Source: Sulfurimonas sp. (GTDB lineage Bacteria > Campylobacterota > Campylobacteria > Campylobacterales > Sulfurimonadaceae). Taken from it: a DNA stretch of 56,082 nucleotides. The position numbers and the translations under genes are program-made. The stretch is from contig JALUXP010000071.1 in the NCBI GenBank assembly GCA_027013295.1, forward strand, positions 1 through 56,082. The letters are read 5' to 3'. Shown in pieces: positions 43,352 to 48,948 of the stretch (its first letter is position 1; each line of letters opens with the position of its first letter). The notes under the pieces were generated by a model, which searched no databases, was not told where the DNA came from, and saw nothing but the letters and a program-made list of their open reading frames with translations.

Positions 43352-43828
43352 TTATCTCTCCAGTGCCACAGCACCACTTCTTACTATCTCTTTAGGATTA
43401 TACCGCTTGATAATTTTCAAGAAGTTATCAACTCTTTTTGGCTCATCTGCAACCATAACTATAATAACATTTTCGCCTACATTGACAATTTTTCCATTGT
43501 AAACTTCACAAAGGGTACTAATATCTGCAATATTTTCATTTGCAGGGAATTTCACCATTGCCATCTCTTTCTCAACCAAATCAGCATGCTCATAAACACG
43601 AAGCACAGGAATAAGCTTGTGCAGTTGTTTTGTGATTTGTTCTATCACACGAACACTTCCAGATGTTACGATGGTCAGTCTCGAATACTTAGACTCAGGG
43701 ATAGGTGCTACAGTCAATGATGTAATGTTATAGCCACGACCAGAAAACAAATCCGTAATGCGTGAGAGCACACTTGCTTCATTCACAACAATAACTGAAA
43801 CTACTCTTCTTGCGTTATTATCATTCAT
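43352..43828 (-). CDS. ilvH: Acetolactate synthase small subunit
   Basis: This 158-residue regulatory subunit starts at ATG 43828, overlapping the ilvB TGA. The ACT domain (VVSVIVVNEASVLSRITDLF, GRGYNITSLTV) binds valine for feedback control. The C-terminal domain contacts the catalytic subunit. It is paired with ilvB, as usual. Confidence 0.95.
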   Translation of the reverse strand: MNDNNARRVVSVIVVNEASVLSRITDLFSGRGYNITSLTVAPIPESKYSRLTIVTSGSVRVIEQITKQLHKLIPVLRVYEHADLVEKEMAMVKFPANENIADISTLCEVYNGKIVNVGENVIIVMVADEPKRVDNFLKIIKRYNPKEIVRSGAVALER

Positions 43829-45525
43829 CACTTATCTCCTTTTTTCTCTAAGAGCATCATATTAAATAAGCTTCCTCCAGCTGGTACCATTGGCATTACA
43901 TTTTCCATTCTATGGACTACAACTTCTATGAATGCTACTATATTTTTCTCTAGTGCATCTTTGAGTGCCGCATCAAACTCTTCTTTTGTTTTTACTCTAT
44001 AGCCAATTCCGCCAAAAGCTTCTGCAAGTTTTACAAAGTCAGGTTGTACAGAAAGATCTGTTTGACTATGGCGTTTATCGTAAAAGAGTGTCTGCCATTG
44101 TCGCACCATACCAAGATAATTATTATTTAAAATAATATTTATTACAGGTAGCTTATTTCCAACTGCTGTCATAAGCTCTTGAACATTCATAAGTATTGAG
44201 CCATCACCTGTAAAATTGATACTAATCTTTTCTGGAGTTGCAGCTTTGACACCCATTGCAGCTGGAAAACCAAATCCCATAGTTCCAAGCCCACCTGAAC
44301 TTATAAACTGGCGAGGTCTTGTGAAAGGGTAAAATTGTCCTGTCCACATCTGATGCTGTCCAACATCTGTAGAGATGTTTGCACTATCACCTAAAAGTTC
44401 ACCAACTCTTTGCACAACCCATTGAGGCTTAAGTCGCTCAGTATCTTCATGATATGCTAGCGGATGCAATTTTGCAAAGTTTTGCACTGTCTCTCTCCAC
44501 GCTTTGTATTTTTTAGATTCGACACCTGCTGTTAACTCTAACATCTCATTGACAACATTTTTTACATCGCCAACGATTGGATAGTCTGCGTTTACTAGCT
44601 TTGAGATTGAAGCAGGGTCAATATCTACATGGATAACCGATGCATTTTTTGCAAATTCTGTTAACTTACCAGTTACACGGTCATCAAACCTTACCCCAAG
44701 ACCAATAACTAAGTCGGTCTCACTCATAGCCATATTTGACGCATATGAACCGTGCATACCAAGCATACCTATGAGCAGTGCATCATCATAACTTAGAACC
44801 CCTCTAGCCATAAATGTTTCCACTGCAGGGATACCTGTTTTTTGCACCAAGTCTCTTACTTCATAAGCAGCATTTGCATTAATGATACCACCACCGAGAT
44901 AAAACAATGGACGCTTTGCATTGGCAATAGCCTCCATTACTTTTTTGATTTGACGAGGATTTCCCTTTATATGAGGCTTATATGTTTCTAACTCCAACAC
45001 AACAGAATAATCAAATTCAGCAATTTCGGCTGTTACATCTTTTGGAATATCAACATGAACAGGACCCGGTCTTCCAGTTGCAGCGATATGAAATGCTTCT
45101 TTTAGGACTCTTGGTAGATCTGCAGCACAAGTAACAAGATAGTTATGCTTTGTGCATGAACGACTAATCCCAACAGCATCTATCTCTTGAAAGGCATCTG
45201 TTCCAATAAGGCTCATTGGAACTTGACCAGAGATAACTACTAAAGGGATAGAATCCATATATGCATCAGCCAAACCAGTGACTGCATTTGTAAAACCTGG
45301 ACCAGAAGTGATCATAGCAACACCAACTTTACCACTAGCTTTTGAATACCCTTCAGCTGCATGCACCGCAGCTTGCTCGTGACGAGTTAAAATGTGTTTA
45401 AAATCTTTTTGTTTGTATATCTCATCATAGACATTCATGATAGCTCCACCAGGGTAGCCAAATACTGTATCTACTCCTTCTGCAATTAAAGCTTCAATAA
45501 CCATTTGTGCGCCATTTATTTGCAT
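43828..45525 (-). CDS. ilvB: Acetolactate synthase large subunit
   Basis: This 565-residue ThDP- and FAD-dependent enzyme carries out the first shared step of valine, leucine and isoleucine synthesis. Motifs include FGYPGGAIMNVYDE, the catalytic Glu in RHEQAAVHAAEG, SGPGFTNAVTG, and the ThDP motif GDGSILMNVQELMTA ending in NNNYLGMVRQWQ. GAGGAGACTT precedes the ATG. It is downstream of a promoter at 45555-45560. Confidence 0.97.
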   Translation of the reverse strand: MQINGAQMVIEALIAEGVDTVFGYPGGAIMNVYDEIYKQKDFKHILTRHEQAAVHAAEGYSKASGKVGVAMITSGPGFTNAVTGLADAYMDSIPLVVISGQVPMSLIGTDAFQEIDAVGISRSCTKHNYLVTCAADLPRVLKEAFHIAATGRPGPVHVDIPKDVTAEIAEFDYSVVLELETYKPHIKGNPRQIKKVMEAIANAKRPLFYLGGGIINANAAYEVRDLVQKTGIPAVETFMARGVLSYDDALLIGMLGMHGSYASNMAMSETDLVIGLGVRFDDRVTGKLTEFAKNASVIHVDIDPASISKLVNADYPIVGDVKNVVNEMLELTAGVESKKYKAWRETVQNFAKLHPLAYHEDTERLKPQWVVQRVGELLGDSANISTDVGQHQMWTGQFYPFTRPRQFISSGGLGTMGFGFPAAMGVKAATPEKISINFTGDGSILMNVQELMTAVGNKLPVINIILNNNYLGMVRQWQTLFYDKRHSQTDLSVQPDFVKLAEAFGGIGYRVKTKEEFDAALKDALEKNIVAFIEVVVHRMENVMPMVPAGGSLFNMMLLEKKGDK

Positions 45526-45554: not shown

Positions 45555-45560
45555 ATTATA
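45555..45560 (-). promoter_or_regulatory. -10 box for ilvB
   Basis: TATAAT in AAGTATAATTTTC lies about 30 bases before ilvB, in the 87-base gap after the propeller-protein gene. TTTTTAAG stands just upstream. Confidence 0.5.
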
Positions 45561-45612: not shown

Positions 45613-47739
45613 CTATTCTAAGATATTTTTCACACGCATAGATGGACGCCACATTGCCCTTATGCCTTTTTTCAGTGCATCAAGATTTAATTTTGTCTTA
45701 CCGTATTTTTTCTCATAAATTTCAAAAGTTGAAATAATATGGTCATCAACACCAAAATTTAAAATATAGTTTTTAAAACCTTTTTCAATATAAGTTTTTT
45801 CTTTATTGTGAGCGATAGCATATTCTATTTGATTGATGTATGCCCAAGCATAAATTCTTGCTACAGACATCTGCTTTGAACCAATATTTTTATAATCTCC
45901 TAAAACTCCATCTATAGCTAAAATATCTGCTTTTATCACATAAACCTCTGCCAAAGCCAAATCATTTTGCCATTGTTTTATAAGCTTTTGTCCTGCTTGC
46001 GTATTTTCTAAGAGTTCCGACTTTGAGAGCAATCTATATGCACTCTGCAAGTCTCCATCATCAACAGCCTTAAAAAACTGACCTTGACTCTCTATATCTT
46101 GAATCATTTTTTTTGCAATAACTTCATAATCTGGAAAATCTCTTAAAACTCTAAGCGACTTAATAGATTCATATATATCTCGGCTGTCCATTGCTTTGCT
46201 TATACTTATATAGAGAGTGTCTCCATACATTAAAAGTTTATTGTATTCCTCAAACTCTTTTAGAAAAGGATTTACTTTAATAAGCTCAAATGCAACTTTA
46301 AAATCTTTTTTTGCCATGTTACTTTTAAGTCGCACAAAGACTTCACTTTTAGCAACCATCTCTTGAATCAATCTTGTTTTTTCTGGTATACCTCTATATT
46401 GTGAAAGAAGTTCATAAATTTCCTCTTTTCTTTTACCCTCTTGAGCCAATATTTGTGCTTTTGCAAATAACTTTTTCCATCTTTCTTCCATCAGTAAATA
46501 AAATTTTGATTCTTTATATGATGGATATTTTCTTGCTAAAGAGTAGGCTAATGCTGTATTTCCTTTTTTTATATCTAAAACAAACTTACCAAATTCTGCA
46601 TACTCTTGAAACATCTTTTTTATAATAGTTTTTTTAGCTGGTGAGTTAAAATTGCTCAATAATTTTTCAGCCTTATCTTTTTGTGCATTTTGCAATAATT
46701 TGCTCACTTGCTGTAGAGTCTTTTCCCATATTTTTGACAACGAAATATAAGGTTTTGTATACAGGAGAAAAGGTCTTGTTTTAACATATTCATTTATAGA
46801 ATCATACTCTTTACTTTCAAGAAGTTTTTCTAAATACTTATCTCCCTCATAGATATATAAAAGATTCAGTTCACCATTTTCACAGCCTACTATTAAATCA
46901 TCTCTTGATTCATCAAACTCTAAAGAGGATATAGGACTGTTGTATTTGATGAAACTTCTACTCAACTGAGCATAATTTTCTAGCTCATATACTATGATAT
47001 ACCCAAGTTCTGTACCTAGAAATAAAAACTTATCGTTTGCTGTCACCGCACGCACTGTATCATGGATGCCATTTAAGCGTACAATTATTTTATTTGTATC
47101 AAGATCCCAAATAATTGCACTCCCAGATTTATCTACGCTAAAAAGTCTATTTTCACTTAAAAAATGTATCTTCATTACAGGAGCTGCATGGGTTTTCAAC
47201 CTTGTAACTGGTGTCATCATCGCAAAATTAAATATAGAAATTTGTTTATCGTAACTTGCTGTTGCTACAAGCTGATTGTTTGCACTAAAACAGATATCAT
47301 TAATAGCATCAATATGAGCAGGTAGCGTAAAAGATAGTTTTGCACTTTTGATATCTACAACAAAAGTTTTACCATCCTCCCCACAAGAAAAAAAGTATTT
47401 TCCCTTAGGGTCAATAGCTACACAAGAGACACTCCCATGATGGCGTTGTACTTTCGCAATTATTTTTTTTGTATTGGTATTGTAAAGTCTTGAGAGTTTT
47501 GCTTCTTGACTAACAGTCGCAAAATAATTGCCATCCTCGCTAAAAGAAACTATTGCATTTTTATACCAAACATGATGGATACCCGTCTTAAAACCATTGA
47601 TTACTTTGAGTGTACTTTTGTCCAAAAAACGAATAGTTGTTTTTGCATCAACTACAACCATAGTACCATTGACTAAATTTTTTGTATATATAATAGGGTC
47701 AGTAAAAATTTTATTTCTATTGGTTTTCTTTTTCTTCAT
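45613..47739 (-). CDS. WD40 beta-propeller plus alpha-solenoid protein
   Basis: This 708-residue protein has no signal peptide (start MKKKKTNRNK), so is probably cytoplasmic. Residues about 15-305 hold at least five WD40-type blades, each with H-x5-6-I/V...S-x-D-x-x-[IF] and ending in a W/F-D/N-[LF]-like strand (HHGSVSCVAIDPKGKYFF, HIDAINDICFSANNQLVA, AAPVMKIHF...AIIWDL). Residues about 310-700 are continuous amphipathic helices resembling TPR or solenoid repeats. The gene sits six bases after ilvA and 87 bases before ilvB, in one direction, so it is probably co-expressed with isoleucine synthesis. Function unknown. The propeller-then-solenoid order is that of eukaryotic coat proteins, a similarity of layout only. 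Confidence 0.8.
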   Translation of the reverse strand: MKKKKTNRNKIFTDPIIYTKNLVNGTMVVVDAKTTIRFLDKSTLKVINGFKTGIHHVWYKNAIVSFSEDGNYFATVSQEAKLSRLYNTNTKKIIAKVQRHHGSVSCVAIDPKGKYFFSCGEDGKTFVVDIKSAKLSFTLPAHIDAINDICFSANNQLVATASYDKQISIFNFAMMTPVTRLKTHAAPVMKIHFLSENRLFSVDKSGSAIIWDLDTNKIIVRLNGIHDTVRAVTANDKFLFLGTELGYIIVYELENYAQLSRSFIKYNSPISSLEFDESRDDLIVGCENGELNLLYIYEGDKYLEKLLESKEYDSINEYVKTRPFLLYTKPYISLSKIWEKTLQQVSKLLQNAQKDKAEKLLSNFNSPAKKTIIKKMFQEYAEFGKFVLDIKKGNTALAYSLARKYPSYKESKFYLLMEERWKKLFAKAQILAQEGKRKEEIYELLSQYRGIPEKTRLIQEMVAKSEVFVRLKSNMAKKDFKVAFELIKVNPFLKEFEEYNKLLMYGDTLYISISKAMDSRDIYESIKSLRVLRDFPDYEVIAKKMIQDIESQGQFFKAVDDGDLQSAYRLLSKSELLENTQAGQKLIKQWQNDLALAEVYVIKADILAIDGVLGDYKNIGSKQMSVARIYAWAYINQIEYAIAHNKEKTYIEKGFKNYILNFGVDDHIISTFEIYEKKYGKTKLNLDALKKGIRAMWRPSMRVKNILE

Positions 47740-47745
47740 AAGTAT

Positions 47746-48948
47746 CTAACCTCTCAAATAGCCTTCAGCTTTAAGAGCATTTTGAATCTCTGCTTGATGC
47801 TCATGCCCTTTTGTTTCCATATGTACAGTTACATTGGCATCACCATAATCCAAAGAGATAGATGTCCTATCGTAAGCAATATGCACAATATTTGCATTTA
47901 AGCTCTCAAGAATCTCTGTAAAACGCTTTAGTGAGCCTGGTTTATCAACTAGCGTTACTGTTACATTCATCTTACGAGCTGATTTTAACAAACCCTTTTC
48001 AATAATCACATTAAGCAAAGTTACATCCATATTACCACCACTCAATACTATTGCAACTTTTTTACCTTTTAAAAATTCTAATTTATTATGTAAAACAGCA
48101 GCTACACCAACAGCACCTGCCCCTTCAACTACAAGTTTTTGTTTCTCTAGTAAAAATAAAATTGCACTTGCAATCTCTTCATCATCTACACCAATAAATC
48201 TATCTACATTTTTTTGAATATATTTTAAAGTGATTTCTGATGTATCTCTTACAGCAATCCCATCAGCAATAGTTCTTACACTTACACTATCAACAGCATA
48301 TCCTAGTTCATAAGAGTTTTTTAACGCTGGTGCACCAGATGCACTCACTCCTATCACTTCTATCTTAGGATTTATCTCTTTTATAGCAGTAGACATTCCT
48401 GCAATGAGTCCACCACCACCAACAGGGATAACAATGGCATCTAAATCTTCACATTCTTCAAGGATCTCTAGGGCTACGCTCCCTTGACCACACATCACTG
48501 CTTCATCTTCAAAAGGGTGAATAAATGTTAACTTATTTTCTTCACCAAATCTAAGAGCATAGGCATAAGCTTCATCATAGTTCACACCATGAAGGATAAC
48601 CTCTGCACCATAATGTTTCACGCCATTTACTTTTGTAAGAGGTGTTGATTCAGGCATGATAATCACTGCTCGTATGGAAAACATTGAAGCTGACAGAGCT
48701 ACACCTTGTGCATGGTTACCTGCACTTGCAGCTACTACACCACCTTGCATCTGTTTCTCTGAGAGTGTAGCTATCTTGTTGTATGCACCTCGTATCTTAA
48801 AAGCACCTGTTACTTGTAGATTTTCTTTTTTAAGATAAACATTGATTTGAGATTCTTTACTTAAATGAGGGGCAAAAGTAAATGGTGTTTTGTTTATAAC
48901 ATCTTTAATTCTCTCTTGAGCTTGTTGTATATTTTTTAAATTTAGCAC
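47746..48948 (-). CDS. ilvA: Threonine ammonia-lyase (biosynthetic type with ACT domain)
   Basis: This 400-residue PLP enzyme deaminates threonine to 2-oxobutanoate, the entry to isoleucine. The PLP lysine is in TGAFKIRGAYNK, the glycine loop is SAGNHAQGVA, and PVGGGGLIAG is intact. A C-terminal ACT-like domain (about 325-400) is present. It follows the CoA-binding gene by six bases and precedes the propeller gene by six. Confidence 0.95.
   Translation of the reverse strand: MLNLKNIQQAQERIKDVINKTPFTFAPHLSKESQINVYLKKENLQVTGAFKIRGAYNKIATLSEKQMQGGVVAASAGNHAQGVALSASMFSIRAVIIMPESTPLTKVNGVKHYGAEVILHGVNYDEAYAYALRFGEENKLTFIHPFEDEAVMCGQGSVALEILEECEDLDAIVIPVGGGGLIAGMSTAIKEINPKIEVIGVSASGAPALKNSYELGYAVDSVSVRTIADGIAVRDTSEITLKYIQKNVDRFIGVDDEEIASAILFLLEKQKLVVEGAGAVGVAAVLHNKLEFLKGKKVAIVLSGGNMDVTLLNVIIEKGLLKSARKMNVTVTLVDKPGSLKRFTEILESLNANIVHIAYDRTSISLDYGDANVTVHMETKGHEHQAEIQNALKAEGYLRG

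Follow-up and report, generated by a model that had tools for sequence, protein, structure and literature searches.

In a published survey (Santarella-Mellwig 2010, PMC2799638), proteins in which an N-terminal propeller is followed by a C-terminal solenoid were described from eukaryotes and the PVC superphylum only. The query protein of this study is encoded in a Sulfurimonas sp. contig (JALUXP010000071.1), of which 56,082 nucleotides were analyzed (referred to as the window). It shares the order of domains and their rough proportions with the membrane-coat, IFT and nucleoporin proteins of eukaryotes; unlike these, it is bacterial, comprises 708 aa with a single propeller and carries an 84-residue repeat of its own. 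Membrane-coat-like proteins of PVC members (PMC2799638) are likewise bacterial and consist of a propeller and subsequent helical repeats, whereas the query belongs to a different phylum and features its own repeat. Bacterial WD40 proteins were also surveyed previously (PMC5587647). Representatives such as PkwA have a true WD40 propeller in common with the query, but in PkwA this domain accompanies a kinase, whereas the other half of the query is a repeat solenoid. Since the family described here belongs to the Campylobacterota and possesses its own repeat, the propeller-solenoid architecture is more widespread than the eukaryotes and PVC members of the published survey (PMC2799638), and it may have evolved on more than one occasion.

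The ORF runs from position 47739 down to 45613; its strand, which was absent from a preliminary description of this DNA, was determined to be minus. The arrangement given in that description, with ilvA six bases away and ilvB as the next gene, was confirmed (Table 1). Comparison with the nearest relative yielded a dN/dS of 0.167 over the full gene; taken separately, the propeller gave 0.157 and the arm 0.175. These low values indicate that both domains are constrained and that the ORF represents a real gene under purifying selection. The N-terminus is charged (MKKKKTNRNK), no signal peptide was found, as had been stated before, and the 708-aa protein lacks a hydrophobic segment (highest 19-residue Kyte-Doolittle mean 1.5). 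It is a protein of the cytosol. Moreover, searches against Pfam and NCBIfam did not reveal an enzyme domain, and the query had no NCBIfam match to a periplasmic-sensor or PQQ/BamB propeller family, a known periplasmic sensor having been regarded initially as the contrary outcome. The NCBIfam match PRK13895 (E 0.09) was dismissed as chance.

Table 1. Positions of the propeller-solenoid gene, its parts and its neighbors within the window.
Feature	Position	Strand	Evidence or remark
Whole gene, propeller-solenoid protein, clade I	45613..47739	minus	ORF and domain matches; 708 aa
Seven-bladed WD40 propeller, residues 15-305	46825..47697	minus	Pfam and PDB matches; VIA-align Z 22-23
Solenoid unit 1, residues 309-392	46564..46815	minus	84-residue periodicity; leave-one-unit-out HMM; unit-profile match 46564-46812
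Solenoid unit 2, residues 393-477	46309..46563	minus	Periodicity; leave-one-unit-out HMM; unit profile
Solenoid unit 3, residues 478-561	46057..46308	minus	Periodicity; leave-one-unit-out HMM; unit profile
Solenoid unit 4, residues 562-645	45805..46056	minus	Periodicity; leave-one-unit-out HMM; unit profile
C-terminal cap, residues 646-708 (63 residues)	45616..45804	minus	Alignment; ends in ilv-group motif WRPSM(I/R)V..IL
TATAAT (-10-like) upstream of ilvB	45555..45560	minus	Spacer alignment including deletion genome G012
ilvA, upstream neighbor	47746..48948	minus	6 bp gap; order kept in f1, f4, f19 and f21 genomes
ilvB, downstream neighbor	43828..45525	minus	87 bp gap to propeller-solenoid gene

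Within the N-terminal half, residues 24–296 were matched by Pfam WD40-type profiles with E-values down to 2.7e-27 (Pfam WD40 score of 73 bits at a cut-off of 27), and a phmmer search of solved structures returned WD40 proteins with E-values down to 1.5e-47. In an AlphaFold model of the whole protein (pLDDT 61), strands occupy residues 16–252 and helices residues 299–708; this model and the one of the arm alone were each built from three sequences. The modelled N-terminal part corresponds to seven-bladed propellers such as WDR4 and LIS1 with Z-values of 22–23 over about 251–270 residues and an rmsd of 3.3–3.9 in the top matches. The WD40 repeats close a seven-bladed propeller, behind which only helices follow, in agreement with the WD40 blades (about residues 15–305) and the approximately 390 residues of helical repeats initially read from the sequence and with the fold for which structure prediction had been suggested as a check. 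A PADLOC match to HEAT-ARM_XIII covers the WD40 part only and does not speak for a defence role.

Modelled alone, the arm is entirely helical (mean pLDDT 70); its shape is uncertain. Comparison of the family profile with itself, column by column, revealed a peak at lag 84 (z 4.5), accompanied by its harmonics (168 and 252) and by a signal at half the period (42). Furthermore, each unit was recognized by the profile of the other three in all 19 proteins compared (median E-values of 1e-8 to 1e-13), and short forms of the protein (552–569 aa) end at about the close of unit 3. The arm is an undescribed repeat, consisting of four tandem 84-residue units and a cap, and is reported here for the first time. 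No Pfam or NCBIfam model exists for the unit, and the arm of the query had no Pfam match up to an E-value of 0.1. Screening of the query’s own genome with the unit profile yielded eight matches, and those listed in 46 genomes are located in family-like ORFs. No protein of the fetched loci carries the unit except family members, and in the genomes searched the repeat occurs only behind the WD40 propeller of the family. PDB matches of the arm are weak and comprise the kinesin light chain TPR as well as designed TPRs and helical proteins (best E 3.5e-4). TPR/HAT-type repeat proteins resemble the arm in their helical hairpins and in this weak profile similarity, but their period is 34 residues as compared to 42/84 in the query, whose arm lacks a Pfam TPR match. 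An assignment to the TPR family was rejected, considering the period and the finding that, across 30 members, none of the TPR models matched more than a single protein.

In a genome search, the family was detected in 73 of 249 Campylobacterota genomes and 21 of 55 genera. Carrying genomes feature one to four matches, mostly ORFs of about 700–730 aa (family length about 710 aa), and more than a hundred members were recorded. The earlier statement that such proteins are rare in bacteria must be corrected accordingly, since they are common within this phylum; that no named family is available for Campylobacterota holds. Titles and abstracts of the WD40 literature on Sulfurimonas, Campylobacterota, Epsilonproteobacteria and Wolinella contain nothing on the family. 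A contig scan with the query protein alone had recovered only two near relatives; the family emerged from the wider genome search. Viral contigs gave no match, plasmids gave none to the query’s arm, and only WD40 parts were matched on plasmids by the whole clade II protein L136. The family has so far been seen only in Campylobacterota.

Every full-length member fetched has the propeller in front of the arm. The family alignment of 135 sequences gave a tree with two deep clades. Clade I includes the query (ilv group), a second paralogue in the query genome (G000:C126, 22% identity), a polA-linked group and several short-form groups, whereas signalling-linked copies and groups beside minD/dprA and ispG constitute clade II. 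The second paralogue, which had escaped the preliminary description as had the 84-residue repeat, adjoins recJ and, in relatives, also sulfide-dehydrogenase-type (flavocytochrome-type) genes. In other genera, clade I copies are located beside murI and polA. Neighbors without a Pfam scan (ilv, recJ, ispG, polA, dprA, minD, murI and others) were named by reading their sequences. The isoelectric point of the arm differs between the clades, clade I arms being basic (median 9.0) and clade II arms near neutral (7.6).

An N-terminal propeller followed by an arm of stacked helices represents the architecture of membrane coats, and in this respect the initial comparison with eukaryotic coat, IFT and nuclear-pore proteins stands. 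The likeness is one of architecture only, and a function in membrane shaping would be hypothetical. A bacterial membrane-coat-like protein, copies of which would assemble into polymers through both domains and thus curve or anchor membranes, as has been suggested for the PVC proteins, would be consistent with the common domain order (PMC2799638), with IFT-A chains among the weak Foldseek neighbors of the arm and with the basic arms of clade I. However, no coat, IFT or Nup chain was found by profile comparison at E-values up to 1, and Foldseek returned no match below E 0.1 for the arm model (pLDDT 70, three sequences). The fold matches obtained with Foldseek and VIA-align, at E 0.15 or worse and Z of at most 8.5, are at chance level for helical repeats and, at this model quality, speak neither for nor against homology to coat, IFT or nucleoporin solenoids. 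Moreover, most genomes of the phylum lack the family, and its neighbors are mostly signalling or housekeeping genes, so that a coat function is considered improbable. HAT/TPR splicing factors and PPR proteins also appear among the weak structural neighbors and, together with the basic clade I arms (pI about 9), would fit an RNA- or nucleic-acid-binding protein, in which the propeller guides a basic TPR/HAT-like arm. These matches, too, do not exceed what helical repeats yield by chance, and in clade II the arm is close to neutral, which leaves nucleic-acid binding just as doubtful.

Mapping of the neighbors of homologues, as suggested at the outset, showed that the clade I copy stays after ilvA across four families (f1, f4, f19 and f21). 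The order ilvA–gene–ilvB is kept throughout the Sulfurimonas-like genus and, as ilvA–gene–(ppx)–ilvB, across families f1 and f4, with a Ppx/GppA gene 3′ of the propeller-solenoid gene in f4 and in other f1 genera; ilvA–gene is retained in f19 and f21. This conserved position could be explained by a regulator or assembly platform for the branched-chain enzymes IlvA and IlvBN. Several observations argue against it. In the one-contig genome G012, ilvA and ilvB are 115 bp apart without a family gene, representing a clean deletion. Decayed remnants with internal deletions and stops are located between intact ilv genes in G003 and G010, and frameshifts, which could be assembly errors, were observed in G013 and G025. 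Furthermore, a locus of a related family (L185) features CoA-binding–ilvA–ppx–ilvB–ilvN–lpxD without the family gene, and clade I copies reside beside murI and polA elsewhere. A TATAAT-like box before ilvB is conserved across the aligned spacers, including that of the deletion genome, and on this basis ilvB probably has its own promoter. From this box we infer independent expression of ilvB; the propeller-solenoid gene itself is likely co-transcribed with ilvA across the 6 bp gap. A platform for branched-chain enzymes thus appears unlikely. The proposal that expression is tied to branched-chain amino acid synthesis applies insofar as co-transcription with ilvA is likely; the link beyond this is weak, given the box of ilvB, the loss of the gene beside intact ilv genes and the operon in L185. 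The gene would not be required for isoleucine synthesis and is probably carried along by the ilv operon without being indispensable, as deduced from its deletion and decay beside intact ilv genes in several close relatives and from the conserved promoter-like box of ilvB.

Two further features of the ilv region were noted. A Ppx/GppA phosphatase gene, encoding an alarmone-type enzyme within the branched-chain operon, is located between the family gene (or ilvA) and ilvB in six loci of other genera and families (L034, L145, L148, L151, L182 and L185). Some Sulfurimonas-like genomes (L086, L087, L088 and L184) carry duplicate lpxD genes in tandem 3′ of ilvN.

Many clade II genes are located directly 3′ of a receiver and/or PAS gene, often with an overlap of 4–25 bp; these response-regulator partners are likewise new compared to the preliminary description. 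One such pair, in L155, consists of a regulator of 268 aa and a family protein of 693 aa. Common to the upstream receiver/PAS proteins is a C-terminal domain, named X, that spans about 125 aa and for which no real Pfam match was obtained (PAS_8 at best 0.0035 in four of eleven). In 60 relatives and 249 genomes of the phylum, all 21 strong X-domain matches (E below 1e-15) are located beside a family gene, either immediately next to it or, where two copies stand in tandem, as the first of these; this included a check of loci L186–L188. Nine of the 21 were not used to build the X model. Weaker matches, with E-values of 1e-11 and above, occur at scattered positions and probably represent ordinary PAS proteins; since the model was built from neighbors of family genes, it could overlook X domains that have diverged and lie elsewhere. 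When the clade II loci were grouped by context, manually and following the tree, 11 of 26 groups had a signalling gene next to the family gene, as compared to 5.7% of distant genes (P about 5e-5). A separate clade II group has a receiver gene on the downstream side; two of its three loci show an overlap of 11 bp. For clade II, and for this clade only, gene order strongly suggests a link to signalling. The clade II cousins with a signalling neighbor are about 20% identical to the query, which has no X-domain receiver/PAS neighbor and in whose own genome no X-domain gene was found.

The dissimilar neighborhoods of the clades (recJ and flavocytochrome-type sulfide dehydrogenase genes, ispG, polA, minD/dprA) and the repeated loss of the gene would also be expected of a plain passenger that plays no part in scaffolding, serves the cell in some other way and owes its position to genome history alone. 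Both domains are under purifying selection, however, and in clade II the adjacency to X-domain genes is strict; we therefore consider this interpretation rather unlikely. Given that distant members of the family are linked to signal-receiving proteins, a protein-docking scaffold is regarded as the most likely function, rather than a part of isoleucine synthesis. Specifically, a non-enzymatic cytosolic docking scaffold is proposed with somewhat better than even confidence, clade II acting in two-component output and the query being a clade I copy that serves another partner and is dispensable for making isoleucine. The propeller and the four-unit arm would each provide one binding surface, which could allow a single protein to bring at least two partners into contact. 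The dedicated partner of clade II would be the receiver/PAS protein with the C-terminal X domain encoded just upstream, and the scaffold would most likely act on the output side of two-component signalling. The query may have lost, or never had, an X-domain partner gene; its protein is probably translated from the transcript of ilvA and would act on a partner other than an X-domain protein. The genes of X-domain response regulator and scaffold form two-gene units suited to co-expression, and through them a function that can be tested directly is available for a family without a name. More speculatively, Campylobacterota might have evolved propeller-solenoid scaffolds independently of eukaryotes and PVC members, with assembly or cargo binding being switched by response-regulator phosphorylation via the C-terminal docking domain. 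Such coat- or IFT-like structures would be under two-component control, whereas clade I copies including the query would be unregulated; this extension is a tentative one, with a modest chance of being correct.

Further observations concern the genomic surroundings of individual groups. Short clade I forms (554–569 aa) in L045, L138 and L168 directly follow or overlap a gene encoding about 610–650 aa, which in L045 carries a FapA_N domain (PF20250). In one clade II group (L136, L132, L134, L139, L165, L166 and L169), the gene is flanked on one side by a divergent polysaccharide deacetylase gene (PF04748 in L136) and on the other by dprA, with minD close by. Moreover, L050 (6436–10735) harbors a tandem pair of full-length clade II copies separated by 31 bp.
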